Assembly: GCF_029227915.1 (NCBI RefSeq)
Contig: NC_079887.1
Coordinates: 21,325,650 to 21,389,649 of the forward strand
Source of the DNA: Hydractinia symbiolongicarpus
Taxonomy: Eukaryota > Cnidaria > Hydrozoa > Anthoathecata > Hydractiniidae
Direction: 5' to 3'
DNA: 64,000 nucleotides
This document shows positions 1 to 50,689 of this stretch, one piece after another (within the stretch, counting starts at the first letter, position 1; every line of letters starts with the position of its first letter). Under the pieces are notes generated by a model. That model saw only the letters and a list, made by a program, of their open reading frames with translations. It was not told the DNA's origin and ran no database searches. Made by a program: the position numbers and the translations under genes.

Positions 1-660
1 TCCCAGCAACGCGGAACTTTTTCCATACAACCTTTTTGAATGGAAGTATTAATGAACTTGTTTTTCTTCTTAATATGCGATTCTAACCGCTTGGAAATCA
101 AACTAAAAAAGAGCTTTCCTTCAACATTCAGAAGAGCTGTGGGGCGAAAATCCTTTATGTTGGATGGACAAGGAGTGTTGTTTTTAGGTATGTAAACTTC
201 TGATGCAATTCTCCATTTCACAGGAATAAAAGACTTCTTTAAACAAGCTTGAAAAATGTTAAACATGCAATATGAGGACAATTCTTATATACTGTGTAAG
301 AAATTTGGTTCAGCCCAGGAGAAGAAGCATTTCTACGAGAACGTAGGACAGCTTAGAAATCCTTGAACTTTAGCTTGGGAGAATCGAAAGCTGAGACTAC
401 ATTTGGTGGTGAAGGCAATCCAGGGAGATCTGAAAGAGGTATATGGCGTGAAGGATCGTTCAAGGTTAAATGTTTGTGTGAATCCATTTCGTGCTGGGCA
501 ACTTAAAGTTTTATTGAACATTTAGGATCTAAAATATTTTTCCCAGCCTGATAAGGATTCTTAGAGAAAGCCTGGCGTGCATTCGGGGTTTTCCAACGTT
601 TTTTCCTATTCCGCTCACCTCTGCGAAGTAACCTTAACTTGGCCATTGTATCATCTAAAA
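1..660 (-). pseudogene. LINE reverse transcriptase fragment (R2/CRE-like)
   Basis: Reading the minus strand from about 660 to the window edge gives the N-terminal part of a non-LTR reverse transcriptase. A basic segment includes RRGERNRKKRW and NARQAFSKNPYQAGK. It is followed by RRNASSPGLNQISYTVYK and then the diagnostic block DFRPTALLNVEGKLFFSLIS with QKGCMEKVPRCW at positions 270-1. The last 90 residues form one open frame that runs off the left edge. Upstream, at least two frameshifts or stops separate the blocks, so this is decayed. The RPxxLLNVEGKxFFS wording is typical of R2/CRE-type LINEs, the same class as the REL-USP copies elsewhere in the window. That makes it a plausible RT piece of that family, but the link is inferred because the downstream part lies outside the window. 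Confidence 0.8.
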
Positions 661-1344
661 GGTAAATGCGATTAGATAAGTAGTATTAGATAAAAAGTTT
701 ACTAAGTTTACATTTTTATGGTAGTAAAGAATGTTGTATTTCCATAAGTAATTTTTCATTCATTTAGGAATTAGAAACTAAGAAGGTTGATTTGGGACGC
801 CTTTCGGGACTTCTGTGCAGAAAAACAGTCGTTGGCGCTTTATTAAGCTCCCAAAAATACAGGTCCTGGAAGGCGTCAGGCGGTGTTTGCGTGTACACCC
901 AGGAGGACGACCAAAGGGGAAGGATGAGCATGAAGAGGAGAGGAGGCGGTTATAGCGGAGGGAGGGGAGGAAAGTGGTTTTGTTTATTTTTTGTTAATTT
1001 GTTCTAATTTATTATAGTTATATGTATATATGAGAAAATTTAGTCTTGAATGAGATGTTCACACATATTTTTTAGTATACTGTTACGCATTTACACCATG
1101 TTTATGTTTTTCTCCCCAGAGATAATAATCAAACCAAATAGGAATGCCATGACTTCCTTATGCGGATAAAGCATTCGGCAAACTCTGAGATCTTTTTATT
1201 TGGTTATCCGATTCTAATATTTGGTTATGTGATTGCCCTAATCAGTTATGCAATGTTGTCATTCGGTTGTGTGGTTGCTTAGTTCGGTTATGATGAAGTG
1301 TCAAAACAGCTGGCTGTTGTGATATAGCTTGTCCAATGGCGGCT
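661..1344. other. Interval without recognised gene
   Basis: No recognisable protein. The short plus-strand open frame at 792-1007 is low complexity (Gly/Arg-rich) with no family signature. From about 1192 to 1300 the sequence is built of degenerate GGTTATG-type words that resume after 1620, so the LINE 3' end at 1345-1625 seems to have inserted into this simple-sequence tract. Confidence 0.5.
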
Positions 1345-6099: not shown

Positions 6100-8045
6100 A
6101 CAGCAAGCTGTAGTGATTCGACTAGTCTAATGACTCTTATTTTAAGTGGTAGAGTTTAAACCCTCTTAAGATCTCTATGCAAAGCAAGATCTCCCTTTTA
6201 CAAGGATGGTCTGTACAACCAAGTTAATTAATAAAGCAACCCTCTGGACAATACAAATATTGCAACAACAAAACAAAAAAACAAGAACAACATATATTGA
6301 CATAAAACGTATATATACATGCAAATAAATAAAAACTATGAGAAGGGGGCAAACAACTACCTATGCGCCAGGAGTTGTGAACCTGGCTGTAGCTTTACAC
6401 GTGTTACGGGATCCCAACACTCAGCCTTACACAGGTGATTGATGCTTAGGACCAGCCTTGGTCAGGACCAGCCTAAGGTTACTGGGGTGATATGCGTGGG
6501 CGTAAAACCACGAAGAAATAAAAGAGAAATTTCATACCCCCTTGCAGAGCTTCTTACAAGAATAACTATGGGTACATTAACCCTGTAGACCCAGTGCGCA
6601 AACTTGGCCTCCCTACTGGACTGGGGTAAAAAGTGGGGTCGTCGCACCCAAAGACAAGACATAGTCGAACCCCCTTGCTATGCTTCTTATGATTACTCTA
6701 TAAGAGAGTGAAGAGTGAGCAAACTCTAGGTTCACGGTAGACTGCTTGTGACAGAAACAGCCGGGGTAATATAAAACCTCTAGGGAAAGATAAGCCTCCC
6801 CATTTTATGTGAATGTTAATCAGACAATTTTTACATTTTCACAAAAAACAACACATACACAGAAGAGTTATTGAAATCGGATGGTGCAACTCTAACAAGT
6901 GCTTTATCGTCAAATCCTAACCATGAGCCACAGCTGCGATCTTCAATGAATGCCCAATAGTTACCTGCTCCTAGGGTGCCCGAATGATTATTAGTGGCAG
7001 CTAACGAATATTTGTTGTTAAATAGTATGTCATCCGTTGGCTGAGAGCGAACTCTAAAAATGTCATGTGAAGCAAGGCAGGTAACAAACTTGTTATTTTT
7101 TAGGGTTCTTCCATCAAGAAACGTAAACCTCTTCAGTTGGATAATTAGAATGTCTCCGCACTGGGTGAAAACCGTTTCGCTTGTACTGTCTTGATAAGAA
7201 GAGCACTGCGGGCAAAGCCACCTGTCATTTCCAGACAAATTTTCGGGCTGCAAAAAACAATTAATTGAACCTCAACGCTGTTTGAGATAGGGAGTGGCAC
7301 AATAGGCATACTTTCCTCCCTGCTAGTTGATAAGAAGCATGCATTACATGACGTCGTAATGGTTATAATGTTGGTGATGATTTATTTGCGATAACCGAAG
7401 GGCCTGTTAATTCACCCAAGAGATGAAGCAGTATTTCTGGCACGTTCTGCTGGGTATTAATGTTGAATGGGGTCTTCCTAATCTCACGCTGCAAGGCTCT
7501 TAAGAAGGCGGAAGGGTCAACAGCTGTGGAAGACTGGGACAGCATGGACATTCTCAGCATAACAGACTTCAATAGAGGAGAAACGAGAGAAGATTCCGAA
7601 GCACAATGTAACCAAAATGATGGGATTGCAGGTAATGCTTGCAGGATGGAATTGGCGTAACAGGTGTTTCCTTTATTTATTAATCCTGCGTGAATTACTT
7701 TGCAGGCCCAGACCCACCTACCCACGTAGGTGGGTCTGGGCCTGCTTTAAGAGGTGTATTGGGCTTGGCGACTGTTTGTTGTTTGCCCTTTGGCATTAGA
7801 GGAGTGGGTATGGAATAGCTGGTTGAAATAGGAATGTGGCTGTGTTCATTCCATACCTTTGTATTTCTAGCGACCCAAATACAAAAAGAAGCTTTCATGC
7901 ACATGTCACCAAGTTGACGAGCAGCTTGAAAAATTTTTCTGCGGTCCAATCAAAGTCTTTTCAAACACGAAGAAACAGACTGACGAGAGGTAGTTGCAGA
8001 AGAGAGTCACGTAAAGAAACACATTCAACAACTCTGTTGTCTTTC
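6100..8045 (-). mobile_element. REL-USP LINE copy 1 (5'-truncated, with 3' UTR)
   Basis: A minus-strand LINE copy that begins inside the restriction-like endonuclease (REL) domain near 8040, continues through a USP peptidase domain to about 6831, and then has a roughly 700-base 3' UTR. The UTR contains GTCGTCGCACCCAAAGACAAG (read on the plus strand near 6625) and ends with the terminal block near 6150-6200 (CTCCCTTTTACAAGGAT on the plus strand). The same UTR modules follow the USP ORFs at 28875 and 63741. This shows that ORF and UTR travel together as one mobile unit. Confidence 0.75.
6831..8040 (-). pseudogene. LINE C-terminal REL tail plus ubiquitin-specific protease domain (copy 1)
   Basis: From 8040 downwards: the end of the REL domain (CLKRL, MKASFCIWVARNTKVW), then a linker of about 50 residues rich in Pro and Lys. 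The USP Cys box AGLINKGNTCYANSILQ follows near 7690-7640, then LRALQREIRKTPFN and NTQQNVPEILLHLL. Zinc-finger pairs are TSCNAC (about 7335) and WLCPQC (about 7213). Then come GDILIIQLKRFTF and the His-box region NNHSGTLGAGNYWAFIED, ending VLFFVKM. USPs cleave ubiquitin from proteins with a Cys-His-Asp/Asn triad. Here the usual His of the GHY box reads Asn (AGNYW), so this copy would be inactive. A frameshift near 7365 and a TGA near 7966 also break it. Confidence 0.75.
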
Positions 8046-8054
8046 ACCAGATGT

Positions 8055-9096
8055 TCACCATGTTTCAAAAACCTTTTTAAGATGCTGCAATAAGATTTCA
8101 CTACTCCTGCTGATTTGCGTTTCTCTAGTACTCTCTCTATGTGCAAAGCATTGCGGACAAAACCACTTGTTTCCATTGTTTAGAATTTCTGGTTCTAAAA
8201 ATTTGCTGACACAAGACTGGATGTTATATGTCCTGCATTGCGACATTTACCGAGGTGCACAGGCAGGTATTTCAGTTTACAGAGATTGAGATTTCAGTTG
8301 AGATTTTATCTGCAGCAATCGGGAAAAATCCCTTAAGTGCGTCCAAAACCACAAACATAATCTCTGCTACATCTTGCTGATTATTAAATTGGAAGTCCAC
8401 TTTCCCATCAGAGCATTTGACGTTTAAGGGCCCAGAGAAAATTCGAAGGGTCAACAAGTGACAATGATTGCGTCAGTTTCGCCATGTTAAGCGAAATAGA
8501 TCTCGCAATAGGTGACAAATGAAACGATTCTGACCCACTTTGCGTGTTGGAATGGTACTTAATACTTGCAAAATGGCGTTGGCGTAACAAGTGTTGCCTT
8601 CGTTTAAAAAACCGATGTTTTTATATACACAAATTGGTTTTATTTTGGCTAACCTTTTTAAAAGGCCCCTTTTGGCGAGATGAAACACACTTGGTCTCCA
8701 CATTGGGCAAAGCCTGCTTGGATTTGGGTAATTGCATTAAGGAGTCAGTTCACCAAACATTGGATTCACGTGCCAGCCAGATACAAAAAGAAGACCTCGT
8801 ACTGATTTTAACAAGATCATTTGCAGTGGAATAAGCAAGTTTGTTGGTGAAACCCATTCTTTTTAAAAAGGCAGTGGTGGTTCTTGCACAATACCCTCTT
8901 GCTCCTACTTCCACTGCCAAGAAATCAACTTGCCAGCCATTAACCATAATCACATTCATTAAACAGAAATACTTGGCAACTTTGGTGGAGTGCCAAGCAT
9001 TCACATTTTCCTCACATGGGCAAGTGAGTTCCACAATAATAACATGCTTAAGGTCATTCGAATCATAGTCATAAGAAAAAAAGATAGTCTGGAGGC
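8055..9096 (-). pseudogene. LINE REL nuclease plus USP domain (copy 2, downstream half)
   Basis: Minus strand from 9096: VIIVELTCPCEENVNAWHS, NGWQVDFLAVEVGARGYC and SSFCIWLARESNVW form the core of a PD-(D/E)xK REL endonuclease as found at the C-terminus of R2/CRE-type LINEs. A linker of about 45 residues leads to the USP Cys box IGFLNEGNTCYANAILQVL near 8630-8575. Then come DPSNFLWALKRQM, FNNQQDVAEIMFVVLDALKG and the Zn-pair region KWFCPQCFAHRES near 8165. It ends about 8055, before the His box, where copy 1 begins. The upstream half of the same LINE continues beyond the P element at 19832 (KPDLVLYSN). Stops and frameshifts are present, for example TGA after ESNVW. Confidence 0.75.
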
Positions 9097-9159
9097 CGGT
9101 GATGGCCCATTGTTTAGCCTTTAGCTAATTATTTAGCTGGCGCCCAGACCTCCGAAAGT

Positions 9160-9222
9160 ACACAAGAACTTCAAAATGGCTGATTATTAGTGGGCTACTC
9201 CCATCGGTTGAAGTTCTTGTGT
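9160..9222. repeat. 15-bp inverted repeat (hairpin) in P-element leader
   Basis: ACACAAGAACTTCAA at 9160-9174 is the exact reverse complement of TTGAAGTTCTTGTGT at 9208-9222, separated by 33 bases. It lies between the terminal repeat and the THAP start codon. It may be an internal transposase-binding inverted repeat, as P elements have, or an RNA hairpin in the leader. It is not repeated at the right end. Confidence 0.6.
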
Positions 9223-9245
9223 AATATTTTGAGTATATTTACAAC

Positions 9246-9477
9246 ATGCCTGGCGCAAATTGCTCAATTTATGGTTGTTCTGTTTCTCGAAGAAATAAAG
9301 AGTTCAGTATATTCAAGATTCCATCTCCTAACAATGATTTTAATAAGAAATGGAGAAGTGAACTTTTGAATATAATTACGAAAGATCGTGTTGTTGATGA
9401 CTTGCTAAAGAAGAGAATTGATGCTAGCCAAGTTTATATATGTGAAAAACACTTCAGAGAAGACCAGTTCTGGATAT
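9246..9477 (+). CDS. THAP-domain exon of P transposase
   Basis: A 77-residue exon starts MPGANCSIYGCSVSRRNKEF and contains IFKIPSP, the Trp of KKWRSELL, and VYICEKHFREDQFWI. These are the C2-CH zinc ligands (Cys6, Cys11, then Cys and His of CEKHF) and the invariant Trp and Pro of a THAP DNA-binding domain. The donor TATGTAAGT is at 9478. Spliced to the acceptor at 15634 it continues YPTRKSLKEGAIPTINLP, which supplies the expected 'xLKxGAIPTIxLP' end of a THAP domain in the right phase. The domain would bind the element's ends. The exon itself is undamaged. The intron is about 6.2 kb because another transposon gene occupies it. Confidence 0.8.
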
Positions 9478-9484
9478 GTAAGTA

Positions 9485-10379
9485 GCGAGTATCCTTATCT
9501 GTAATCATTATTGTTAGCTTTCAAATGTTTCTTCTGGAGTGACAAGAAGCTGCCTTCCTGACTTTCTAGCTCTTGCTAGCTAGAACTGAAACAAAGGGTA
9601 CATGTCTAAAAAACTCAAGGATATTTTTTTTGTAATTCTATATGTTATCTGGAACTCATGTGAGCTAAGGCATGTCTAAGGTCGTATCGCCTACCTAAAA
9701 CTTCGCACTTTGACATCCTATAATTTGCGTCAGAAAAATGCTATAAGCGCGCTCTTTTTTTATTGAAAGTGTGACCATAGACGGCTAAGTTTTTGTATGC
9801 ATGTGCATCTTTCCACTTCGGGACTGTCTTCTAGGAGTATTATAACAAATCGTACTTTTAGGCTTTCAAGCCATATTCGCTAGCTATGCTACATTCTCAA
9901 GTTGCGGTTCAGTATAAATAAGGTTAAACATCATGGCCTCTCACGTTTACAAACTGAGGAACTGATGTATAAGTTAATAAAAGCACAATAATCATAAGAA
10001 ACCGCTATTTTACGCCAATTATAGCATTTCTTTGGGTGATTTACTGGGTTTCGGCTCACTTTTTTACATTTCCTCAGTTTCCAAAATATTCTCTGATAGC
10101 TAAATAACTCTACTAAATATTTCTCAGAAGTTAAGGGTTCGTGGAAATGTTGCGAAAGTTCAATTTGTTGTTACTATCCATTATATTTTTTCTTAAACAA
10201 GCGTTTTCCCAAAGTTGTTGTTGTACACGCTTTGTTCACGTGAACATTAAAATTTAAGCCAATCAAGTTGAACATAAATGACGTAACTTCAAGTTTCATA
10301 ATGGCAGAATGCTTCTGAATAATAGCGGGAAATAAAAAGCGCTAACAAACTTATTTTAATCTAATTTATTATCAAAATA
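9485..10379. other. Intron of P element, non-coding part
   Basis: I see no gene here. It is AT-rich sequence before the first frame of the uncharacterised transposon gene at 10380. The last 100 bases before 10380 could hold that gene's promoter, but no defined motif stands out. Confidence 0.4.
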
Positions 10380-11329
10380 ATGAGTAATTATGCATTTCAT
10401 GATCCACGAATATGTGGATACTATCCCACTGCTGTTTATTTGATTTTATCAAATACCGAACTCGTTTCACCTCTTGCTATACGTAGTCAGTCCTTTAACA
10501 ACAGCGAAAGTGGCTATTCAAGCTTGAACGAAATTTCTGATTTGAACAACACCCGAACAGATCTTTTGAATTTTGTTGACGAAAATGAGCAATTAAGCAT
10601 AACTCGTAGCGGGATATCCGAAAACAACCTACATTCCACACCAAATGTAAAATGCAAACAAAAATCGTGTGTATTTGTTCCAATGGATGAGGGATTTGAA
10701 AAAATGAAAATACTATTTCAAAATCATTTCGACATGGAAATACTTCAGTATAATCTATTTCAAAAAAACATCCAGCGATTTATAAATACAAACAAAAAAT
10801 GAAGCAGAAATAATGCAAGAAACAAAAACCAATACTATAGTTTTTTCTCTCCTACTAATTGGAAAAAACTCCAAGATAAAGAAAAATTCAAACATTCACT
10901 TATTTGTGACGAATGCACCTTAAATCATGCGGAAATGCAATCCTTATTCCCATCAAGCACAAAGAGATTTTGCCAAGCAAGAAAGAAAAACATATCCTAC
11001 ACTACAAATGAAATGAAAAAAATACACCCCAAAAAAAACACTCACAGACTGCACAAATACAATCTATGCTGCTATTAATTTTGGATTTAAGAAGAAATTT
11101 GGAGTTAATTTTTCAAAAGGCTTGGCTAGTGCAAAAGAATTGAATCTTCAAGAAAGACCAACTACTTATGAGAAAAAAAAAGAAAAAAGAGCTCAAGTTA
11201 AAAACGTGATCAATTCCTTGCAGAAAAATTTGGATGAAACAGCAGTTGATAGGTAAGGTTACAGCTTCTTAGCAACAATAACGGAAAAGCTTCATATATA
11301 ATGAAGAATAGGAGTAACTACATCGCAAT

Positions 11330-11620
11330 GCAGATAAAACTAGTCTTTTAAGACGGAAAGTTTAATTAAAAAAGGAGGTTTCTCTCCAAAGAATAAGAAG
11401 CTGCTGGAGAACTTCTGCATTCTCCCCTTTACAGGGATAATCGGAAAGTTAATGGATTTCGACTGTACTGAAACAAACACCTATGAATGTGGAAACACGA
11501 GGATTGGTGAAATTCACTCATGCTTGGGATCTGGTGCGGGCCCTTGAGTAAGCATCCCCTGCCTCCTGCAAGACACCAGCCACATTCATTGACACCGTCC
11601 GCCAAAACCAATAACTTTTG
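11330..11620 (-). mobile_element. LINE 3'-end fragment in an intron
   Basis: On the plus strand the words GAGGTTTCTCTCC and CTCCCCTTTACAGGGAT parallel the terminal blocks of the USP-bearing LINE family near 6160-6205 and 28430-28490 (minus-oriented). Only the 3' end remains, inside the first intron of the uncharacterised gene at 10380-15019. Confidence 0.4.
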
Positions 11621-11644
11621 TTAAACTTTGGAAAAAGAAAAGTC

Positions 11645-11895
11645 GACAGCTGCAAATCGTATCGTTGTTGCTTTTACCTACTGACACAGAGCCCAGGGCT
11701 AAGAGAGGTAGACTTGGAACCCAGCCCTTAGAGAGGTTGTGACAAAGAATAAAAAGCAGCAAACCTGGAAACAGAAAAGCTTTCTGACCTTAGACATGAA
11801 CACTTGAGAAATCGTATCGTAGTGTTGGGCTGACCAAGAAACCGCCCCTTAGAAAGGTAGACTTGGAACCCAGCGGAGGCGACCCAGAAAACCAT
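11645..11895. repeat. Imperfect direct duplication, about 160 bp period
   Basis: AAATCGTATCGT occurs near 11648 and 11811, and GAGGTAGACTTGGAACCCAGC-like words occur near 11704 and 11859. A unit of about 160 bases was duplicated in tandem. No coding content. Confidence 0.5.
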
Positions 11896-14800
11896 TACAT
11901 ATCGTCTCGAGCTTAAACAAGTAATTCACTTCACCACCCAGTCAACTTTTATGATTCGAAATCCACCATATACAATAGAAGTGAAATATTGACCAATATA
12001 AAATACCAAAACATAATGTAAAACAAGTTTTAAAAATTAACAAAAAGCTTTTGTGCTATGCCAAGATCAGTTAAGCTAAAATCTTTCATAATATTACAAT
12101 ATATATTGTGAAAAATCGAAAAATACTTATAACACTAAAAATTACGTTGAGCAGATTTTTTGGTGGATAAGCGTCTGATAGAAGCAATTTCTGAATGAAG
12201 CTTTGGTGAAAAAAATGCTATAAAAGCTTAATAAACTTTTGTACAAATTTTGATTTAGAAGTTACTAACTTTCAAACAACCCAGAAATATGAATAAATAC
12301 AATTTAAGTTGTTACAATAAATTTGTGTTACCTATAAAATAATATATTACTTATGTATTTAGGTGTTTTGGTATGCGTCAATCTTTAAAACTTTGGGATA
12401 AATCAATAAAAATACAGTCATTTGAAACTGTTGATACAGCAAAAGAAAGAACAAAAGAGGTGAAGAAAAAAATTTAAACTGGTCAACAAACTCTGAAAAA
12501 TCACGTAGGAAATCACAAAAGCTATTCTTGGGATAAAAGTGGTCTTGAGGAAGAGGTAAATTGGTTTAAATTCAATTCTGGAGATTGATAAGAAAAGCAA
12601 ATTTTCGAGTGAATTTATTTCAACTGACTTTTTAATTACAGGCAAAGTTATGGGATTCTAATACAGAAGTTAACTGGGCAGAAATTGGTAGAAAATACAA
12701 AATATTGAATAAAAGTGGCAAGTTTGCTCAAAATGGTGGACAAATAGCGAAAGAGTACCTCCTATACAAAGCGAAAAATGGGTTTAAATTAACGTATAAA
12801 GGCAAAGATGAGAAAAAAGATATCGTTAGAAGAAGATTAAAAAGAGTTGCAAATACAACAGTTCCAAATGACATCAGTGCAAAAAAGGTAATTCTTACTT
12901 TTAAACAACAATATGCCAGTTTATATAATATATATAGTATATACAACTGTATCAGATTTTATTTGCTTTTCTCAAAGGTGAAAAAACTGCTGGATGATGA
13001 GATAGCAGCAGGAAAAATCTTAATTGGCCATTTAGTCAACCCGAAAACATACACTAGATTTTCAATAAAAGATGGAGTGGTTAGTTCAACAGAATTTACA
13101 GTGAAAGGACGTAAACACACATTGCATGAGATACGCAATAAACTGCTGCTGAAGCACAAAAAATATATGAGATCACAGCCTGATAGTTATTATGAAAGTT
13201 TGTCTGAAAAAGATATATATGAACGCTTATTGTTATTACAAGAGCAGAGTGCGGACCACTCAAATTTGAAAATGAAGCTGAAACAATACGAGTGCACAAG
13301 AAATTTACAAATTTGGCATGATGCTTTCACTATTGCTAACCACAGCCACATTTTGTTTGCTGTGAATGTTTTATATGACACTGCAGTATTCTATACTGAT
13401 AAGGAGTACTTGCAGATTTATGGAAACAAGGTAGATGTACAAAGTGAAATAGAGAGTCCAGAGTTGTACATAATTGGGCGATGTAAATCTTCTGATGAGC
13501 AACTAGGTTATGTTGACACAAGGGTGGAATGCTTACAAGACCTAAATATTCCAATAACTACTGATGAAGGAGTCACCATTTATGACAAAATGAGATTGTT
13601 CCATGGTGATGGACCAGCAGCACAACTCGAAGGAGGTAATCAAAAAGGTGGACATTATTTTTGTCCAACGTGTGACGTATTTCTATACCAAACGGATGAT
13701 ATAACTTATAGTTATCAGCTTAAATCAAACTCACTGCAAGAAATACAGCATAAAGTTATAAGTGGAAAATATGGACTGATAAACAGTAATAAAGGTAAAC
13801 TAAAACCCTTTGCTGCCTTGTCAACTAAGGAACTTCAGGAGGAATTGAACTAAAGAAAAATATCCACTAATGCAACAACGAAAATAAATCTTGCTAAAGA
13901 ACTAAAACAACACTTAAAGGGTACTACAAGAGTACCAATTCTTTTAAAAAATAATCCAACTAGTGACCTATCAAGTCTGAACCTGGAAAAATACGAGATC
14001 GCTATGCTGGAGCCCATGCACGACATTGGGGGCCATATAACTAATCTTTTTGAGGAGCTACCTCACCATTTGACAAAGGCTGACAAGGAAAAATTTGACG
14101 AAGCATTTGAGATTAGTCATAAACAAAAAGAAACACAACGGAATTGTGATAAACGCAAATCACTATTGACAATAATTGTAACCCTTGACGGTAAAATAAA
14201 TAATAAAGCTATATGCCTGCTTAAAACATTGGCAGATATACAAAGAATACTTTACTTGAACAAATTGAAAAGAAATTCACAGGAAATATTGCGATTACAT
14301 AATGCTTGTTTCAAACATGCAATTTTACTGAAAGAAGTCATTGGTTTTAATCTGAAAAAAATTACTAGGGAAAAGTTGTATGGCAAATATATGCACAATT
14401 TAATAGTACACTCTCCAATTCAATATCGTCTAATCAATGGACAATCAATTAATTGTGAAGGTGAAGAACGTTTTTTTAACACAATAAACAGATTACTGGT
14501 ACTACAAGTTCTAACAGACCAGGTCACATTATTGGCAACATTATAACAAGGCATCAGATAGAGTCGCGATGCAAAGAATCATACAACCTTAACAATGAAA
14601 ACAATCAAGTAAATCGAGATATACAACAACTAAATGAGATCATTGAACGATATCAATATAATACCGTTTTCACATATGATTACATAAAAAAGATTGGTGC
14701 TGAATGGCCGTCCCATTTATAAAGAATTTCCGACTTTCTTTATGCTGGTGAGAAAGTGTGGTGGAAGAGCACTGAATTTGGTGTTGAATTTCTAGATAAA

Positions 14801-15019
14801 TGTCGGCATGAAAAATATCCGCAACTACCTAAAGTTTATCACTTTCGATCAATAACAATTCCACAAATTGAACAAAAGCTGGAAGGTATGTGGGAAAAAC
14901 TGATAAATGAAAACATAGTCATACCCATTCATCAAATTTATACTGAGAATGAAGATGGAAAAAGCATATCAGCCACAAACTATTATGTCCATATATCAAA
15001 GATCAAACAACCATTCTGA

Positions 15020-15634
15020 AAGGTCACACTAGTGAAAATGAAAATGAAAAAAAAATTGAGCCTGAATTTGAAGAGTTGGATGATAAATGCTTGGATATAC
15101 AAGAGAAAAAAGAAGACATTCCTACAGATACTGATATGAACCTGGAAAAAGAAGAGGCTATTGACTATATATATATATATATCAGTGGTATAATTTGGAC
15201 TACATCCACTTGTGCTTTATTTCGTTTGAGAAGAAGACTACTGTAGGTAGCTCATCATTTCTCCTAAAAACGAAAAAATTAGCCCCTAAAATTCTGTAGT
15301 ATTTACTTGAAAGACTTTTTATTCTAATTATATGAATTTTAGAAGAAGATATTCATTATTTACCTGAAATAAAAAAGTTTTAATCCACACGCTATCATCA
15401 AACACTCTGGAAATGTTTTTGTTTTCGCCAACGGCCAATATTGATATATATTTGTAAGCCTCTGATTGGTTTAAATATTTATTGCGCGACTTGCCCAAAG
15501 TAGCATTTCCTAGATCGCGGTGGAAAAAAAGACAAGCCTTAGCCGACATGAGCATGATGCTTCTTCCCTAAAGCTTGAGGTTGAATTAACTTGTATATAT
15601 ATAATTAATTGCTAATTTATTCTTTTCCAAATAG
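15020..15634. other. Intron 3' part of P element
   Basis: There is a TA-dinucleotide run at 15165-15183 and otherwise unique AT-rich sequence, ending with the polypyrimidine-like tract and AG acceptor at 15634 used by the P transposase. No gene seen. Confidence 0.4.
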
Positions 15635-18091
15635 ATCCAACACGAAAATCATTAAAGGAAGGTGCAATACCAACTATCAATCTTCCCCAAAAAAGTATTA
15701 AAACACCAAGCCTGCAGCACGCATAACCTTGGCCATTGAGAAACGTGAAGAATGTTTAGTGCTTCAGCAATTGTCACCTTTACCACCACCACGTATGTAT
15801 AAAAGTTTTGCAGATTTCCAACAACGCATTCAAAAGCTACAACTTGATGAATGGAATATCAGCACATCAAACACCCTCGCTGTAATCACTTTACCTTCTC
15901 CTGATCACATTCTACCAAAATATGAAATCTTTGTTGACCAGTCGTTGTCATTTAGTCTACGCGTTTTTGGTTGGATGTTACCGGATAACCATAAACTGTA
16001 TATTGATTACAAAAGATCATTTTTAAATGTCACACTTTCTATTTTTGTTTGTGATGTTATGAAGTTTAATTTTTGTACTGGTATTCAAACTTCTGATCTT
16101 GATGTGAAACTTAGCTGTCAAAGCCATGTTATTCCAAGAAAATTTGATTACCATCAATTTCAAAAAAAGGAATTCAAACCTGTTGTTAGTCAAGACGAAT
16201 ATTTTCGTTCTTCCATGTGTGAACTTCTGTTAAGTAATGATGGACAGAAAATATGCATTTCTTGTGATAAACATAATGTGAAGTGCTTGTATGAACGTAA
16301 TCGGAAAAAGGCAAAGCTGAACGAGCCTGCAAAGCTGACTGCTCCGATAAAATTTACTTCGCCTGAAAGTACAAAACTTACCATACAAGGTCAGCTTTAA
16401 GATGTAAGCAGTTGGAACAGGAAATTATTAATATGAAAACATCAATAACTTCAGACAGCAAAAATGTGACTCCTGAACTTTCCAATGATTTCAAATCCAT
16501 ATTTTCAAGCTCTGACCAAGGCAAAATCCCCCCCTTTATGAAATTATTTTGGGAGGAGCAGCAAAAGTACCTAAAAGAATCAAATGCAACAAGTGTTCGG
16601 TATCATCCAATGATTATAAAATTTTGTTTGGCTCTTGCTGCTAAATCATCATCTTCATATTCAGACCTTCGGTACAACAGCAAAACCGGTGCTGGCATTT
16701 TAATACTTCCAAGTTTACGAACATTAAGAGACTACAAAAATTACATTCGTCCAAAACGTGGATTTAACAATGAAGTGATTTCAGAGTTAAAACAAAAGAC
16801 AGAGCTATTTTCTTCTCCTGAAAGATTTGTTACTATTCTCTTCGATGAAATGAAGGTGCAAGAAGATCTTGTATGGGATAAACACACTGGCGAGTTGATT
16901 GGTTTTGTAGACTTGGGTGACATTTCAGTAAATTATGCAACTCTAAAAAATGTTAAAGAATTGGCTACCCATGTCCTTGTATTTTTGGTTAAAAGTGTTG
17001 TCAATCCTCTTTCATACAGCATAGCCACCTTTGCCACTACAGGTGCAACATCTTTTCAGATATTTCCATTATTTTGGAAAGCTGTTAATATTTTGGTAAA
17101 TATTGATTTAAAGGTTATTGCTGCAACTGCTGATGGTGCTTCACCAAACCGCAAATTTTTCAAAATGCACAAAGCTTTGGATGGAAACCCAGGAAAGAAT
17201 GTTGTTTATAGAACTGAAAACCTTTACAGTCAAGATAAACGGTATATCTATTTTTTTGCTGATGTCCCTCATCTTATCAAAACTGCTCGTAATTGCCTCT
17301 ACAACTCAGGTGCTGGTCGTGGTACCAGGTATATGTGGAATAATGGTTTATTTATTTTATGGAGTCATATATCTCAACTGTATTATGAGGATTTGGACAG
17401 TGGTTTAAAAATGCTAACTCGTCTTACATCTGATCACATTAACCTAACACCGTATTCTGTTATGAGAGTTCGTCTTGCAGCACAAGTCCTAAGTGAAACA
17501 GTTGGTTCAATTCTAAACGAATTTGGACCACCAGAAGCTGCTGGTACTGCCCAGTTTTGTGACATGATGGATAAGTTTTTTGATTGCTTGAATGTCAGAA
17601 ACACTGTTGAACATACATTGAAGCGAAAACCTTTTTTAAAGCCTTATGAGTCGATAGATGATGAGAGATTTGAGTGGTTGGATAATTTTCTATCGTATTT
17701 TACGCAGTGGAAAGAATCCATAGATCAACGTGCAGGAAACTTTTCTAACCATGCTAAAAGTAACATGTTTGTTTCATGGCAGACACATGAAGGATTGCAA
17801 ATAACAGTCCATTCCTTCAAAGAAGTTTCTAAGTTTCTTCTTCAGCATGGTGTTCCATATATTCTTTCTGAAAGGTTTTGTCAAGACGATCTGGAAAATT
17901 ACTTTGGCAGACAGCGTGCTATTGGTCATCGCCGAGATAATCCATCTGTGAAAGATGTCGGCTACAACGACAACACCATAAAATCTCAATTTTCTGTTCG
18001 CCCAATTGCTGGTAATGTTCGAGGTGCTGTTGGTAAATATAATGTTATTGATGATACTCCACTACCCAAAAGAAAGAAATCAAATCAGTAA
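15635..18091 (+). pseudogene. P-element (THAP9-like) transposase body
   Basis: The exon at 15635 continues the THAP exon of 9246-9477. The body follows in two frames: 15729-16400 (MYKSFADFQQRIQKLQLDEW, FGWMLPDNHKLYIDYK) and 16412-18091. Before the second, CKQLEQEIINMKTS is a short coiled coil. The catalytic RNase H-like part includes VTILFDEMKVQEDLVWDKH, ELIGFVDLGD, VIAATADGASPNRKFFKMH and FADVPHLIKTARNCLYNSG. The C-terminal helical part has FCQDDLENYFGRQRAIGHRR, DVGYNDNTIKSQ and RPIAGNVRGA, the standard end of P transposases. The acidic residues of DEM, ADGAS and the QDDLENYFG Asp/Glu are present. One frameshift lies near 15710 and another near 16400, so it is nearly intact but not translatable as is. 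Confidence 0.85.
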
Positions 18092-18145
18092 GAACTTTTG
18101 TCCCATTAGGGAATTTCTAATAAAACAGCTATTTTTATAGCTACA

Positions 18146-18212
18146 GCCCTGGTAGTCCAATAGTAGGACAACCACATTGTGGTAGATCTAGGTTCAAATC
18201 CTAGTCAGGGCT
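18146..18212 (+). other. tRNA-like sequence with a 3-nt anticodon loop
   Basis: Acceptor arms GCCCTGG and TCAGGGC, D stem GTCC/GGAC, and T arm CTAGG-TTCAAAT-CCTAG form a good cloverleaf. The anticodon arm, however, is ACCAC-ATT-GTGGT with only three loop bases, so it cannot decode. It is preceded by TATTTTTATAGCTACAG, which recurs in front of the opposite-facing tRNA-like unit at 18431-18493. It is probably a tRNA-derived repeat (SINE head) or tRNA pseudogene rather than a working tRNA. Confidence 0.5.
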
Positions 18213-18430
18213 TGTATTATGAAAATGCATAAGATATATTTTTTATTGTCCTTCGGACATAACAAACATATCTAAATTCAGCATAATGAACACTTAGATT
18301 ATATTTTATAAAACATGATAAGATTTACTAATTTTACCAAATTTTTCTTCATGACATGACTTCTTTAAGTACCAATATTAAAACACAAATTTAAAAAAAA
18401 AATGTTTCTAAAACACATTTTAGTTATCAT

Positions 18431-18493
18431 CGTCTCAGCTGGGAGTTGAACCCAGATCACCAGATTGGTATCTTTCCATTAGACGACTAAGAC
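18431..18493 (-). other. Second tRNA-like sequence, opposite orientation
   Basis: On the minus strand: acceptor GTCTTAG with CTGAGAC, D stem GTCT/AGAT, T arm CTGGG-TTCAACT-CCCAG, and an anticodon arm ACCA-ATC-TGGT with three loop bases. The leader TATTTTTATAGCCACAG matches that of the unit at 18146. The two form an inverted pair between the convergent P transposase (ends 18091) and C2H2 gene (ends 18534). Confidence 0.45.
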
Positions 18494-18533
18494 TGTGGCT
18501 ATAAAAATAACCGTATTAATTTGGCAAAATACA

Positions 18534-19737
18534 TTACTGCGTTGGTTTTGAACTGCAAGTGGAACTGGCCCTTTTCATTTCTGTCCTGAGATAACGTTTT
18601 TTTGATACCTTTTTCGCTATTTTGTGTTTTTCCCTAACATCTTTTGCATACGAGAAGGTACGAACCTTGACAAACAAACTTACCATATGTTCCAACAAAT
18701 TGAGCTGAGTTTCTTCCTTAACTTTTGGACTAACACTATACCCTATATGTAAAATTGGAAACAACTAATGAATTGGTGATCATAGCACGTACAAGTCTTT
18801 GCAGTTAATAACAGATGTCACATTGATTGTGTGCTCACGAAAGATTTGCTCACATTGGTAAAAAACATCTTTGTACTTGATTTTGGTACTTCCCATCCAA
18901 AGTCCACCTCTGTTCCGAGCATTAACCAATGTCTGGGTGCTATCTTTTTCTACTTTACAAGCTTGTAGTAGTGATACATACTGCTTATAAACTTCAGAAC
19001 TATGCCACTTCTTTCAAAAGCGAAATTTTGAATGCAGTTTGTGCAATATATAACCAAGCAGATATTGCAAACTCTTTTTTTCCTTATCAGGTAAAGATGC
19101 AATTTTAGTTAAGGTTTTAGCATCACCAACTTTTGAACCAGAAAGGTGGAGTAAAACATCATTAGCTACTTCAGCAAGTAAAGTGTTACTAACAGTTTTA
19201 TCTTTAAACTTATCCAACAACAAATTTTCAACAAGCAACGAATAATATTTTGCATAAAATTTCTCAGCATCACCATTAAATTCATCGATTACAGACCTTA
19301 TTTTGCACCAAAGTTCATGTGCCTCATCTGTAGAAAAAGAAAAATTCTTTGGTGAGAATTTATTTCTTAGCTCTTCTGGGAAACAGCAGTCTGAGACAAG
19401 TTTTTCAGCACATTTTTTCACAATCATCTTCAGTTCAAGTGGATGCAGTTTTTTCAAAGAAATTTCATCTACAGAAGAAACCACTTAAGTCTGTTGAGGG
19501 TCGTGTCACATGCTTACTGTTGATGTGCCTAGAAAGGCCACGCCTGGACTTGCATCTCTTTTCACAATGTTCGCATTGAAATCCTTCAACTATTTCTTCA
19601 TCCAATGTTACCTCAGAAACAAGGTTATTAATTTCTCCATTAAAATCTTCATCTCCATCAAGAAAACCACCTTCTAGCAAGTAATACAAATCATCAAGCT
19701 CTTCTCCTGCAATAAAACTCTCTGAAAGGGTAGCCAT
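18534..19737 (-). pseudogene. C2H2 zinc-finger gene convergent to P transposase
   Basis: From ATG at 19737, within the right terminal repeat, the protein begins MATLSESFIAGEELDDLYYL, is acidic for about 55 residues, then has one C2H2 finger, FQCEHCEKRCKSRRGLSRHI. A single-base frameshift near 19490 leads to SLKKLHPLELKMIVKKCAEK and a helical region to about 19014. Decayed frames then give SEVYKQYVSLLQACKVEKDS, LVNARNRGGLWMGSTKIK and HTINVTSVINCKDLY. The C-terminal piece at 18764-18534 is FSYAKDVREKHKIAKK, LRTEMKKAS-like. I recognise this as a recurrent transposon-associated family (RNRGGLW motif) without known function. It lies within the P-element borders and ends 440 bases from the transposase stop, so it looks like the element's second gene. 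Confidence 0.55.
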
Positions 19738-19831
19738 TTTGATGAAGTTGTGTACTTTCAGCGGGTCGTCGAACTTTTTTCAGCCTTGCGCGCGCAAGAC
19801 AATATTGAAGCTAATAAACGGCCCACCGTGA

Positions 19832-21095
19832 CTAAATTTGAATATAGCACAAGGTCCGGTTTAAGCTCAGAGGTTCAAAAGGAAGCTCAAAAATGAACTT
19901 CTTCAAAGTTTCTACCAAATGGGTAAGTACAGAATCGTGTCTAAAGGTATATCTTCCCTGGGAAAGAGCAGTTTTACAAGCACCAAGTATGTGCGCAGAA
20001 ACAAGATGGTTCTGTATTTATTTCCCCCCTCCTCAAGTTACTTGGTGAGGGCAGAACATCGTAAGTGGATTGCAGGCAGAAAGATAAGAGATTAGGAGGA
20101 GTTGCTAGGATGTTCTTATATGAAAGATCAAACTTTACGTAGTTCTCCCATCTCCCATCCCCCGCACCTGAAGTTGCAGTGCCTTAGATAGATAGCTTTT
20201 CTCGTCAATCTCAGCCGATGTTTTTGCGATTAACTTTCTGTACTTGTGAGTGGTTTTTGGTGGTATTACTTCCACTTTACAATTGCCAAGACCGGTTCGT
20301 CCACGCTGTAATTCATCCTCAGCTATTTCAACTGCATCGCTCACCTGCCTTTAAAGATGGATTGAGTGTTGACAGAATTGGATCTTTGGAGTGTCGCAAA
20401 AGTAGGTGAGCACTAATTTTTGCGGATTTTAAAATAGAACTGAGGCTCTTAATGGGCAGAGGGCAAGGAGAGGAGTCAGCATATAGGGATGTTTGTGATG
20501 GAACGGTGCAAGTTCAGCCATTTTCGTATGAACACTGAAACCTTTTGCTCTAGTTGCCAGCAACAGACATCGAAACCTAGTATATTAACAGTGGCCACTG
20601 AATTCGCGGGATCAAAAGATGTTGCAAGATCCAAAGTTTTTGTGCTCCAGTGTATAAGGACTTATTAATGACACCAAGCCCTTCTATCAGCTTTTCCTCT
20701 AATTCGTTGATGGACTTCTTGTCTGAGATAAAACAATCAATAATCCGGCCTAAAAATCGCACTGGCAAGGCATGAATAGATGGGATATACTGTGAGAAAT
20801 GTCGTTTTCAGGGCTACTTACACTAAAAGGGGTGCTATTGATAGATCTTCCCTTGATGATCACAAAACTACGGGATTTTTCAGCGCGAAATGTCATATTG
20901 GCTTAACTTAGAGCTGTGGTGCACCTGTTAAGGAGTTCCAGCAACAGACGAAGACATGATGTTTATGTCGTCCATAAAAGACCTTATTAAAGGTAAGGAT
21001 ACTCTTTTAGAGGTGATGTAGCATGACACAGATGTTGCCAGCGTGTACTCCAAAATAACATTTATGCCTGATATAAACAAGACGATGTTATAAGT
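19832..21095 (-). pseudogene. LINE reverse transcriptase, Zn knuckle and REL start (copy 2, upstream half)
   Basis: Minus strand from about 21090: GINVILEYTLATSVSCYIT, then the RT active-site motif RSFMDDINIM (near 20985). Next come ANMTFRAEKSRSFVIIKGRS, PVRFLGRIIDCFISDKKS and QKLWILQHLLIPRIQWPLL (the palm/thumb region typical of R2/CRE LINEs), then LQRGRTGLGNCKVEVIPP. Further on are STYDVLPSPSNLRR, EPSCF and HILGACKTALSQGRYTFRH, a CCHC-type knuckle region. Last comes KPDLVLYSN, the PD motif of the restriction-like endonuclease. At 19831 the P element begins, and the REL domain resumes at 9096 with HVIIVELTCPCEEN. This copy therefore shows RT, REL and (after the P element) USP in one collinear LINE. 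Several stops and frameshifts break it. Confidence 0.8.
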
Positions 21096-21250
21096 GAGGT
21101 CGTTACACCCAAAGACAAGGCAATTGCAAAGCCCCCTTGCTAAGCTTCTAATAATTGCTTTCTAGGAAAGCGGCGAGTGAACGAACTCGTGAATAACGGT
21201 AAACTATATCTAAAACACACAGCAGGGGTAAGAATGAAAATTACAAAGTG
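21096..21250 (-). mobile_element. LINE 3' UTR fragment
   Basis: Plus-strand words GAGGTCGTTACACCCAAAG and AAAGCCCCCTTGCTAAGC match the 3' UTR of LINE copy 1 (about 6620-6760), including the following ATTGCTTT..GGAAAGCGGCGAGTGAACGAACTC-like part (here split by differences). It lies directly against the 5' end of copy 2, so two LINE copies meet head to tail here. Confidence 0.5.
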
Positions 21251-28431: not shown

Positions 28432-30170
28432 CCTAGAGGTTGTACTCCTCTAGAGAAAATGCCTCTAAAAGCACAATTCTCCCTTTTTACAAGGAATTAA
28501 TTAAAAAATATAAAAAAATAAAAAGTACACAACACATTTGAAAAGATGAACAGAACTTTAACCAAGGGCAGGTAGATTTCGACCCATATTTCTGAACCTA
28601 ACTACCCTGGATGTCCAGCTGTGTCACCTATCTTCCTAAAGTAAACTTTGACCACTTTCTGTTCAACTGTGCTATTCTTTGTTTTTAACTCAGGTAATAA
28701 GTGGAGTCGCTACTTTCCAAAGACAAGATCATGTGTGATCAAACCCCTTCCTAACTTAATTTTTATTTGATTTTCTTTTTATTTTCGACTGGGGTAAAGT
28801 GGAGTCGTCACTTTTTAAAGACAAGACTGAGTGTAGTCAAGCCCCCTTGCTGACTCATTCCGGTTAAAATATTCTTATCTCAGCTCTTCTAAAAAGAAAA
28901 CATATGACTCGTGACTGTTAATAAGGCGGCCATCACAGAAAATTACTGCTCTATCGTTGCAATGTATCCACCTGTGTACCATTTGGTCAAAGGCTATGGT
29001 TGTGTAGTGACCATTATTTAAGTTGCCGTAATGGTTGATAATAGCCCTTAATTGAAAATTTTTACGAAATTTCACTTCTCCATCTGCGGTTAAAGGTATG
29101 GAAAGGGTACCAGGGTAAGCAGTAATACGAGAGGCAATTTTTGACACAAGGCCGTTGGCACTGGCAAAACGTTTTAGCTGTAAAATGAGATGGGAACCGC
29201 ACGACACTACCTCTTTTTCAACTAGAGCAGTTTGATAAGCGTTGCAAACATGGCAGACGTAGGCATTGGTGTCTGACAACTCCTCGCTTTCGAAGAAATT
29301 ATCTAAGGAAGATTGTAACGTAGGGTGCAGAGAAAGTTGGATGCATGGTGCTATAACTTCTGAGGAGCTGGTAATATGACATGAATTGCAAGTGGTTGAT
29401 GTCTTGATGCCAATACTAAAAAGACTTCCAAGAAATGGAAAGTCTAATGACAGACCAGATAGGAGATATTCAAGAACCTCGGGGACGTCGTGCTGAGCAA
29501 AGATATTAAATGCACTTCCCTTTGCAGTTGAGATATGATGTTTTATAGCACGCAATAAATGGGAGGGATCAATTGGACTTCTAGAAACAGCCAAACTTTG
29601 AAGAACACCAACAAATGCTTCGCCTAGCTTTGAGGTTGTTTTGCTGACAGAAATGGCTTCTTTAACTTTTGGAAGGTTATAAAAACATTGTAAGATTGCA
29701 GGAGTTTGCATAACATGTGTTTCCCAAGTTTTTTAGACCGCTATTCTTAAAATCAGGGTTAGATGGAAATGCGACTGTTGTTTTGGAAGACCTTGTAGCA
29801 AGTTTTGTGTGATTTGCGGAAGATTTCTCAGATTTTTATTTCTTACACTCCATATTTGTAAGAGAAGAAACTTCAGGAATTATTGGGGCCTTTTCAGGCT
29901 CAACCCAAGTGGTAGAATTTCGAGACATCCAGATGTAAAAAGAAGCACTCATGGAGGTAAAAGTTAGGGATTTTAATAGGAAACGTAAAGGCTTGTTAGG
30001 GAAACCAAGGCGTCGAAAACAGGTCCTTACTGATTCTGAACAGAAACCCCTTGCACTTTAACAGATTGATTGCAAGACCCTGCATTGGGGGTCAGGCATG
30101 ATGCATCCTGTGTACTGGTCTTTTGATGTTGTTAATATGATAGGTACTTTTTGAATACTTGTCTTAGTTA
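28432..30170 (-). mobile_element. REL-USP LINE copy 3
   Basis: A minus-strand copy starts at about 30170 (AAGTATTCAAAAAGTACC) in the REL domain, runs through the USP domain to the stop at 28875, and has a roughly 440-base 3' UTR ending with AGGAGTACAACCTCTAGG near 28432. The same unit, in plus orientation and almost identical over more than 1.5 kb, occupies 62462-64000. Both begin at the same point. Confidence 0.8.
28875..29990 (-). pseudogene. LINE REL tail plus USP peptidase domain (copy 3)
   Basis: The REL tail SASFYIWMSRNSTTW (about 29950) is followed by a roughly 70-residue linker and the USP Cys box SGLKNLGNTCYANS near 29725. A 4-base insertion there shifts the frame. The rest is a single open frame of 278 codons (29711-28875) with FAQHDVPEVLEYLL (Q-box region), the Zn-finger pairs TTCNSC and YVCHVC, SCGSHLILQLKRFA, and the His box INHYGNLNNGHYTTIAFDQ. 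It ends with HRWIHCNDRAVIFC (active-site Asp/Asn region) and SYVFFLEEL. All USP catalytic elements are therefore present apart from the frameshift. A stop in the linker (near 29843) also occurs. USPs remove ubiquitin; here the substrate could be RT machinery or host defence factors, which is speculative. Confidence 0.8.
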
Positions 30171-30263: not shown

Positions 30264-30440
30264 ACTAACCTACCGTAGGAATGCAACTGCTACTTTCTGA
30301 TTGGCTAATTTTTGCAGGGCAGTTGCGCAACAATTTTGTTGATCCGTGGCCGTATCAACTAAACTAATAAAGAAAGCTACACCCTTTTAATTATATTATA
30401 GTGAGGCTGATGATTAAAATTATGGATTTAATTTATTTCA

Positions 30441-32491
30441 TTGAACATGGCGACTGTTTCGGATGTTTCAAAAGTCATCTCAAACATTTTAGTTCCACTT
30501 TCTTTTTCAATTAAACCCAAACAATTAGAAGCTGTGGTAAATATTTTAAATGGAGTCGATACCTTGTGTATTTTTCCAACGTGTTATGGTAAAAGTTTAA
30601 TCTACCAACTTTTACCAAGTGTGTGTTTGGAGTTAAATATAGCACCTTCACCACTTGTTTTAGTCGTTTCTCCTCTTATTTCTTTAATCCAAGATCAAGT
30701 TTCATCTGCAAATTCGTTAAGTGCGTTAGGATTAAAGGCTTCCAAACTAGATTGCGATGATTATGGGGATATTATATCTGGCAATTTCAATATTTTGATT
30801 GGCACACCTGAATCTTGGCTTAATAATGCCAGGTGGAGAAAGTTTCTCTCATCTAAATTTGTACTGGACAATGCTGTTTGCCTTGTTGTGGATGAAGTAC
30901 ACAAAGTGTCATGGTATGGTATTTTTATTATTGGTGCCCCAAAGAAAGCATTTTCAGAATGTATGTTTTGTATAATAACATCGTCCATCATAATATGATG
31001 CTAGATATAACTAAATCTGACCCCATGATATTCCTCTATGCATCTTTAGTTTTTAGCGAGAGAAAAGAGAGTGTAGTTTAATGCAAAACAGCATGAACTT
31101 TACTGTACATGCAGATGCAGGCTCATTTTCTGCCACTCTCTGTAAAAGATGAAAACGTTTTCCATTTTTTGAACCAAGTTTTATTTTATAGCTTTATAAT
31201 GTTTATATATCCTTATCTTAGGGGTGCCTCACCAATGAGCAATGAGGACAAGCCATTCAGAGAAGCATTTGGTAGAATCAGTGAAATGCGGTCTATCTGT
31301 CGTCAAGATTTACCTATTCTTTCCCTCAGTGCCGCTGTGGATGTTGATTTGACCCAGCTTGTTATCGGAAGTTGCGGATTATCAAAAAAACTGAGAGTAA
31401 TATCAGTATGTAGTGACAGACAAAATATACGATTGTGTGTTTTGAATATTTCCAGTAGGGAAAATGTCCAATGTCTGAAAAGGATTGTTGACACTTTTTT
31501 ATCAGAGGTTTCTGATACACATAAGGTAATAATTTACTGTCGATCAGTGACTTTGTGTGGTTTTGTTTACTACCACGTTCGTAAGATGATTGAACGAGAA
31601 ACTTTGAAATCTACCGACTAAATTGCCTTATTTCACTGTGGAACATTGGAAGCCCAAAAATCGAATGTTTTATCAGCCCTGACATCAGACACAGGTACTA
31701 TTCGGTTGGTAGTTGCAACAAGTTCACTTGGTTGTGGTGTTAACATGAAGAACGTTAAATTTGTTGTTCATTATGGTCCAGCATATGACACCGCTGATTA
31801 TTGCCAACAGGTTGGCCGAGCAGGACGGAACATTGAAGGACTTTGCCATGCAGTACTATATGTCTTTCCACAGGGCAGAGGAAATGTAAATAATTCTATG
31901 GTATCCTACATTCAGAGCCATGAAAAGAGTTGCTTGAGGACATCACTGTACACTCCATTCAATGAAGACGGAAACAGTGTAATGCCTTTGTCACCTGGCC
32001 ATAACTGTTGTTCATTTTGTGCAAGGAAATGTGAGTGTGATGAATGTCCGTTGTTTCCCTTTGAAATTGTAACAGAAGAAAAAGAATCCAAATTATTTGG
32101 TAAAAAGATTATACGTGAAATTTCAGAAGATGATAAACAACTTGTCAAAGATATGCTAGTTGAGTACCATGAAACTATATGTTCCAAACCAATGTTACTA
32201 GTGCTTGGAGAAGTGATGACTGGGTTATCAAAGAGTTGTATAAATGAAATTGTTTTGCATTTACCATACATAAATTCAATGGAATATATACAAAATAATC
32301 TCAATCTGGGTACAGATACTTCCAAGGAACTTATGCTGATACTCAATGATGTGTTTCAAGATATTGAAGTTCCAGATGTTCACAAAGAATGTGACGATAG
32401 CATGGAAATCGTTGATAAAACGAATCTAGAGTGTCCTGAATTTTCAGATTTCTCTGAACATGAGTCAAATGACAGTGAACTTGACTATTGA
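30441..32491 (+). pseudogene. RecQ-like superfamily 2 DNA helicase (one in-frame stop)
   Basis: Exon 1 (30441-30915) contains the Q motif region SIKPKQLEAV, Walker A FPTCYGKSLIYQLLP (the usual Gly before Tyr is Cys), motif Ia VVSPLISLIQDQV, IGTPESWL and the DEVH box VVDEVHKVSW. The donor TCATG|GTATGG splices to 31217 in phase (SWGASPMSN). Exon 2 carries FGRISEMRSICRQDLPILSL (motif III region), VIIYCRS, ALFHCGTLE, VVATSSLGCGVNMKNVKFV (motif V) and YCQQVGRAGRN (motif VI). A C-terminal Cys cluster CCSFCARKCECDECP follows (about 32005-32060). The only break is a TAA at 31619. RecQ helicases unwind DNA 3'-5'; here it probably serves a mobile element, since it faces the DUF6589-like gene. The Cys in Walker A might reduce ATP binding. 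Confidence 0.8.
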
Positions 32492-50610: not shown

Positions 50611-50689
50611 TTTGGTTTGTTATGATTCCGTGGAACATCGCTAGCCTCGTTTTCAAATATTACGCAATAATTTATGAAAAGCCGTATAA

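Follow-up and report, generated by a model that had tools for sequence, protein, structure and literature searches.

Copies of the element in the analysed window

The stretch of DNA analysed here (the window) comprises 64,000 nucleotides of the hydrozoan Hydractinia symbiolongicarpus (NC_079887.1, positions 21,325,650 to 21,389,649) and harbours four copies of a long interspersed nuclear element (LINE) encoding a reverse transcriptase (RT), a restriction-enzyme-like (REL) nuclease and a ubiquitin-specific protease (USP). Every one of these copies is damaged by frameshifts, stops or truncations; residue numbers are those of P0001, the 1426-codon frame of genomic locus L009, as placed by tblastn. 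Copy 2 lies on the minus strand in two pieces: the first (21110-19871) carries the RT and the zinc knuckle (residues 487-924), and the second, which is frameshifted (9106-7979), carries the REL, linker and USP (residues 973-1358). The two pieces share 90% and 91% nucleotide identity, respectively, with a young genomic family, family A (blastn). With the intervening insertion removed, copy 2 reads collinearly, as the initial annotation had proposed. The motifs named there (FMDDINIM, KPDLVLYSN and the GNTCYAN box) were all recovered by motif search, which in copy 2 placed FMDDINIM of the RT at 20978-20955, KPDLVLYSN and VELTCPCEEN of the REL at 19862-19836 and 9034-9005, and the GNTCYAN Cys box of the USP at 8598-8578 (all minus strand). 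The Cys box recurs in copy 1 (7671-7651, minus), copy 3 (29724-29704, minus) and copy 4 (62898-62918, plus).

The joint between REL and USP, claimed to be common to the remaining copies, was found in all three. Copy 1 (6837-7982, minus; tblastn) extends from residue 1044, in the REL tail, to residue 1425, where the USP ends. It belongs to another family, its 5' side missing and its sequence spread over several frames; the joint is as predicted, and the start of the copy was shifted from the proposed 8040 to about 7982. There it abuts copy 2 or lies within it, residue 1358 of copy 2, the last one matched, being at 7979. Copy 3 (28896-30054, minus; tblastn) covers residues 1038-1421 in the REL tail and the USP; it shows a Pfam UCH match (E 1.5e-23) and a frameshift just behind its Cys box. 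In copy 4 (62562-63724, plus; open reading frame (ORF), Pfam, tblastn and motif evidence), the REL tail is joined to the USP within one open frame (62562-63020) whose last part matches UCH (E 1.8e-8), in agreement with the unbroken frame reported near 62667-63020. The USP of this copy resumes at about 63038 after a break, and a Pfam scan of the continuation (63038-63553) gave no match. In addition, tblastn placed a piece of a related family at 3-661 (minus), which covers N-terminal and RT sequence (residues 180-401) and runs past the window edge.

Full-length copies and protein architecture

A UCH search of the genome yielded at least 150 matches (149 scored of 1015 candidates), many of them within long open frames, and 31 genome stretches (20 + 3 + 8) plus one more (L042) were examined. 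Among the first 20 loci, eight hold family A frames of 1345-1426 codons and two hold frames of a second family, B (1422 and 1379 codons). A single open frame of 1422-1426 codons orders RT, zinc knuckle, REL and USP. When P0001 was compared with the genome (33 scored of 3457 candidates), nine copies covered residues 1-1426, seven of them stop-free, and the suggestion that one ORF spans RT, REL and USP is thus borne out by undamaged genomic copies.

Domain profiles, proposed at the outset as a check on all three domains, identified the protease and the polymerase: in eight frames scanned with Pfam, UCH was matched in all and RVT_1 in five (one below cut-off), the other three frames being incomplete. 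The REL is supported through its motifs and a structural model, and the zinc knuckle is called from its motif and sub-cut-off zf-RVT matches. In the structural model, the protein shows the R2 fold over residues 3-860, matching R2Tg and R2Bm until 860-862, and beyond the nuclease end it matches the USP2-ubiquitin fold; the solved structures closest to the USP part are USP8, USP15 and USP2, with USP1 lower in the list. One ORF combines the RT, zinc knuckle and PD-(D/E)xK nuclease that define a REL non-LTR retrotransposon with the fold, Cys box, His box, Asp/Asn and finger cysteines that define a USP-type peptidase C19. The fusion of RT, REL and USP is very likely real, and the element can be placed with good confidence in a LINE clade of the R2/NeSL group whose single protein ends in a USP domain. 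Since the active site is intact, this domain is likely, judging from its sequence, to deubiquitinate.

Spread, conservation and inheritance of the protease

Searching databases with the whole of P0001 gave 98 matches among 7981 candidates scored, and 52 of the 98 bear both RVT_1 and UCH labels (counted from the labels). Most of these come from contigs of the sources ena, lgn and jgi, taken to be environmental assemblies; P0032 carries the name of a bacterial metagenome-assembled genome (MAG), probably through contamination. The alignment comprised 97 of 99 proteins (P0098 and P0099 dropped), and catalytic residues were counted in the 60 rows having at least 200 USP residues, P0001 included (37 shorter rows of the 97 left out). 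The catalytic Cys, His and Asp are intact in 59 of these 60 rows; the remaining row, P0083, is blank at the last two positions. For the four zinc cysteines of the USP the counts are 59, 60, 60 and 60, while P, D and E of the REL are retained in 60/60.

A quick RT-REL tree was built from 84 rows (53 with USP, 26 without and 5 partial; 13 short rows of the 97 left out). Within a clade of 76, USP occurs in both deep branches (6/21 and 47/55 rows) and diverges along with the RT, at variance with the scenario, raised at the outset as potentially refuting, in which the ORF stops after REL and a USP was captured once. A second tree of 43 rows (two of nine chosen Ulp1 rows without the anchor motif dropped, P0096 added as the eighth) agrees, and parts the USP clade from Ulp1-bearing and fish-like rows with 100/100 support. 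The simplest, though tentative, reading of these trees is one old USP gain with later losses. Furthermore, RT-REL and USP distances are correlated (r = 0.85 over 52 proteins; 0/2000 permutations as high), and in a USP tree the 66 LINE rows part from six cellular USPs, except that P0098 joins the LINE side. The USP fusion is likely to be old and maintained.

Over ten between-family pairs, USP identity at codon positions 1, 2 and 3 amounts to 42-64, 51-77 and 29-44%, positions 1 and 2 being more conserved than 3 in every pair. Between families A and B, the corresponding values are 59/65/39% for the USP, 69/83/42% for the RT and 33/46/39% for the linker. This pattern shows that the protein has been under constraint for a long time.

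Several observations weigh against the explanation favoured here. At the level of domains, zf-RVT is matched in six of the eight frames, always below cut-off, and the similarity of REL to R2 by sequence alone is not significant, the REL call resting on motifs and the model. In the tree, 15 USP-less rows of the smaller branch, falling into three groups (10, 4 and 1), end after the REL (P0084 among them is perhaps incomplete), which implies that the USP is not essential to such elements; the other three USP-less rows of the clade (P0047 and P0064, both Hydractinia gene models, and P0050) are perhaps incomplete. With six cellular USPs in the tree and P0098 at an unresolved fork, the data are compatible with one origin of the LINE USPs or with several. 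The USP is also less conserved than RT-REL (mean identity 32% vs 50%). Among young copies, purifying selection on the USP is not seen: seven full-length open copies of family A have 4 non-synonymous to 2 synonymous changes in the USP and 9:6 in the RT (6:2 and 11:7 with L017 added), and four family B copies have 10:3 and 23:12. Including truncated, probably dead copies of family A gives 18:8 for the USP vs 27:41 for the RT, a contrast that is confounded because truncated copies add mostly the 3' part. Pairwise dN/dS of the USP among close copies scatters from 0.31 to 1.13, and young copies differ too little from one another for selection on either USP or RT to be revealed.

Two alternative views of the protease bear directly on these data. 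The USP-less relatives and the compatibility of young-copy variation with neutrality would suit a captured USP that has no function for the element. Such passive carriage is nevertheless very improbable, given the catalytic triad kept in all rows but one, zinc cysteines each present in 59 or 60 of 60, the codon-position signature and the joint divergence of USP and RT-REL. The faster divergence of the USP relative to RT-REL might instead reflect counter-defence, since arms-race domains often diverge fast; here, the USP would cleave a ubiquitin or ubiquitin-like tag of a host innate or silencing pathway acting against retroelements. Deubiquitinase or Ulp1-type domains are described in several transposon groups (PMC9741609, PMC2836005, PMC4640811). 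However, no non-synonymous excess is shown and weaker constraint fits the faster divergence too, making counter-defence an unlikely role.

Head-to-tail arrangement and the 3' hairpin module

In the loci read, every family A copy that extends into the 5' untranslated region (UTR) is immediately preceded by the 3' end of another copy; this holds for all nine full-span copies. The upstream piece measures about 110, 205, 290, 480, 757, 1030, 2026 or 2450 bp, or is a full copy. The genome contains the first 33 bases of the family A unit at 11 places, of which 11/11 stand at one exact 40-nt joint with a 3' end. Unit starts behind the 3' end of another copy were noted at L009 (2309-2788 and 7677-8156) and also in L010-L016, L020 and L026. 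A diverged relative (L042, G000 C13:23.676-23.704 Mb) presents an identical joint five times, with the same three mismatches and a period of about 5.3 kb; its amino-acid identity is 68-78% in RT-REL pieces and 41-54% in the main USP pieces, and the one copy read in this array is frameshifted. In family B, a long copy at L031 is preceded by a piece from the 3' end of another copy. Of 12 3' ends compared, 11 coincide to within a few bases (L024 ends early). They carry no poly(A), and their flanks, compared by eye, differ from one another; a target-site duplication was looked for and none was found. By eye, one copy apparently lies inside a Gypsy-like element. The identical joints suggest RNA crossing an existing joint, as has been proposed for a Penelope-like element (PMC11167929), rather than a fresh template jump each time.

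The 3' UTRs carry a hairpin module of 65-70 nt, once in family A (L009, 7594-7657), twice in family B and four times in L028 (7484-7865). It also occurs twice behind each of window copies 1 (6618-6681 and 6479-6548, minus), 3 (28786-28853 and 28686-28754, minus) and 4 (63764-63832 and 63864-63932, plus), as detected by cmsearch with covariance model R1. One further module (21080-21143, minus; cmsearch R1 and blastn) overlaps the 5' edge of copy 2 and probably belongs to a neighbouring copy. In a search covering 21 of 43 sequence sources, R1 gave 54 matches at E <=0.01, seven of them in the window. Three of 17 pieces were dropped from the module alignment (L028a for a long insertion, L003b and w28b as near-copies of kept rows). 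With a structure derived from the very sequences tested, 95.3% of cells are paired vs 88.4% in shuffled alignments; five pairs changed on both sides (2/500 shuffles reach that), and 16 cells are changed on both sides vs 4.0 shuffled and at most 2 in slid versions. Rfam at gathering score gave no match in eight loci, nor in the L028 stretch. The module is a candidate for recognition of the element RNA by its protein.

Proposed mechanism and roles of the protease

In the proposed cycle, the protein would bind the RNA that encodes it by way of the 3' hairpin module, the REL would nick DNA, and the RNA would be copied by target-primed reverse transcription, as in R2. Transcription would proceed across the tandem joint, with the 3' end of the upstream copy acting as 5' control region for the copy that follows. 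The USP would strip ubiquitin either from the protein of the element itself or from proteins present at the nick, most likely so that the complex is not lost to the proteasome ahead of insertion or in the course of it.

Self-protection, in which the USP removes ubiquitin from the ribonucleoprotein it belongs to and lengthens the half-life of that complex, is the favoured role, held with nearly even confidence. The USP is placed in cis on the very protein to be protected, and its nearest solved relatives are USP8, USP15 and USP2. Moreover, transposon-type VTD deubiquitinases cleave K48, K63 and K11 chains, and helitron VTDs have been suggested to prevent proteasomal loss of transposition proteins (PMC9741609). 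The existence of USP-less relatives counts against self-protection. Tethering of the USP directly behind the DNA-cutting REL would suit an action on chromatin or repair, whereby, at the nick, histones, PCNA or FANCD2-like proteins are deubiquitinated and second-strand steps allowed to finish; transposon Ulp1 and OTU domains have been suggested to activate repair factors (PMC2836005). Nevertheless, no sequence feature pointing to a nuclear substrate was found, and USP1 ranks below USP8, USP15 and USP2; this role appears fairly unlikely, and self-protection is preferred to it. A broader and more tentative possibility, to which we give distinctly less than even credence, is that a widespread lineage of R2-type LINEs acts as a self-propelled deubiquitinase: every inserting complex would carry its USP to the nick and edit ubiquitin there, on the complex or on host chromatin, and replication would occur only via joint-crossing transcripts, in a Penelope-like cycle that arose separately.

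Insertion in copy 2 and other elements in the window

The REL of copy 2 is interrupted by a later insertion (9064-19835) that is not LINE sequence and that separates the PD motif (KPDLVLYSN) from the E motif (ELTCPCEEN). Its borders are set by an 8-nt near-duplication of the flanks, ATTCGAAT / ATTTGAAT, alike at 7/8 positions; a clean terminal inverted repeat was looked for in the insertion and not found. It contains a transposase ORF (16367-18091, plus) with the Pfam domains TNP-like_RNaseH_N and TNP-like_GBD (PF21787 and PF21788), and judging from these domains it fits a P-type element. Its span differs slightly from the 9097-19831 annotated earlier for the P element.

Elsewhere in the window, a 998-codon frame (57937-60933, plus) combines RVT_1 with a weak phage-integrase-like match below cut-off, and presumably resembles DIRS/Ngaro-type elements. 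DEAD and Helicase_C pieces adjoining copy 3 (30432-32491, plus) may be a gene or another element, and a RecQ-like identity is a guess. A hAT dimerisation domain (42130-43506, plus), a THAP domain (50086-50616, minus) and DDE_Tnp_4 (52877-53515, minus) represent several DNA transposons packed into the window.

Significance and comparison with known systems

Ubiquitin/SUMO-type proteases are found repeatedly in mobile elements, with Ulp1 in NeSL and Mutator, OTU or Ulp1 in Ginger, and OTU plus VTD in Helitrons (PMC4640811, PMC2836005, PMC9741609). The fusion reported here hints at a direct interplay between an element and the ubiquitin-tagging system of the cell. As RT, nuclease and deubiquitinase-type domain reside in one polypeptide, the role of the protease is testable via a single cysteine change, and near-identical open-frame copies are available in a sequenced cnidarian. 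The Hydractinia genome paper names LINEs as a class, and the word 'ubiquitin' is absent from it (PMC11067881). Searches of an open-access library, without Repbase and the bulk of subscription papers, turned up no LINE carrying a USP among the papers listed.

Dualen/RandI elements are LINEs with an OTU-type protease and both APE and REL endonucleases. They resemble the Hydractinia element in carrying a deubiquitinase-type domain; membership was ruled out, no APE endonuclease or OTU domain being present in the eight frames scanned. Deubiquitinase-type domains are also carried by Helitrons with VTD or OTU (activities were measured for VTD deubiquitinases of Helitrons and others; PMC9741609), by Ginger elements with OTU/Ulp1 and by Trichomonas transposase_11 with peptidase C19 (PMC2836005), but all of these are DNA transposons. 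Apart from the Trichomonas protein, no transposon-linked C19 was met in the literature consulted.

NeSL/Utopia elements share with the present element a REL LINE architecture plus, in some of them, a cysteine protease of the ubiquitin/SUMO world. Their protease, however, is N-terminal and Ulp1-like (PMC4640811), whereas the USP of the Hydractinia element is C-terminal; P0096 illustrates the former arrangement, with an Ulp1-like protease (417-590) ahead of the RT (902-1159). The protease-bearing NeSL/Utopia class was ruled out, as the frames scanned hold no N-terminal Ulp1-like (C48) protease: PF02902 is absent from all eight, four of which (L009, L018, L020 and L017) cover the N-terminal part largely or completely. 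Ulp1-bearing rows lie in the other half of the tree, and USP and Ulp1 therefore look like separate gains. A large set of database RT proteins (P0105-P0223), most with Ulp1 (C48), constitutes a parallel protease case in REL LINEs; one of them, P0135, bears a cyanobacterial MAG name.

Similarity to R2 comprises a single protein with RT, zinc knuckle and REL and a predicted fold matching R2Tg and R2Bm, while the C-terminal USP and the head-to-tail unit starts set the Hydractinia element apart. R2 inserts at one 28S site (PMC4640811), and the R2 clade proper was ruled out because the 12 3' flanks, which by eye differ from one another, do not correspond to a single 28S ribosomal DNA site. R2 proteins are reported to be under development for targeted gene insertion, and an R2-like protein from nature that came with its own stabiliser or chromatin editor would be of practical interest.

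Copies of Penelope-like elements are arranged in full or partial tandem, their flanking UTRs being repeated (pLTR), and the canonical element combines a GIY-YIG nuclease with a hammerhead ribozyme (PMC11167929). The head-to-tail (pLTR) arrangement is shared, being present at 11/11 family A unit starts. GIY-YIG was not found in the eight frames scanned, nor any Rfam ribozyme in the loci scanned, and membership is not claimed, REL and an R2-like RT taking the place of GIY-YIG and a Penelope-type RT. Nevertheless, the head-to-tail placement of every unit start found blurs the boundary between LINEs and Penelope-like elements.

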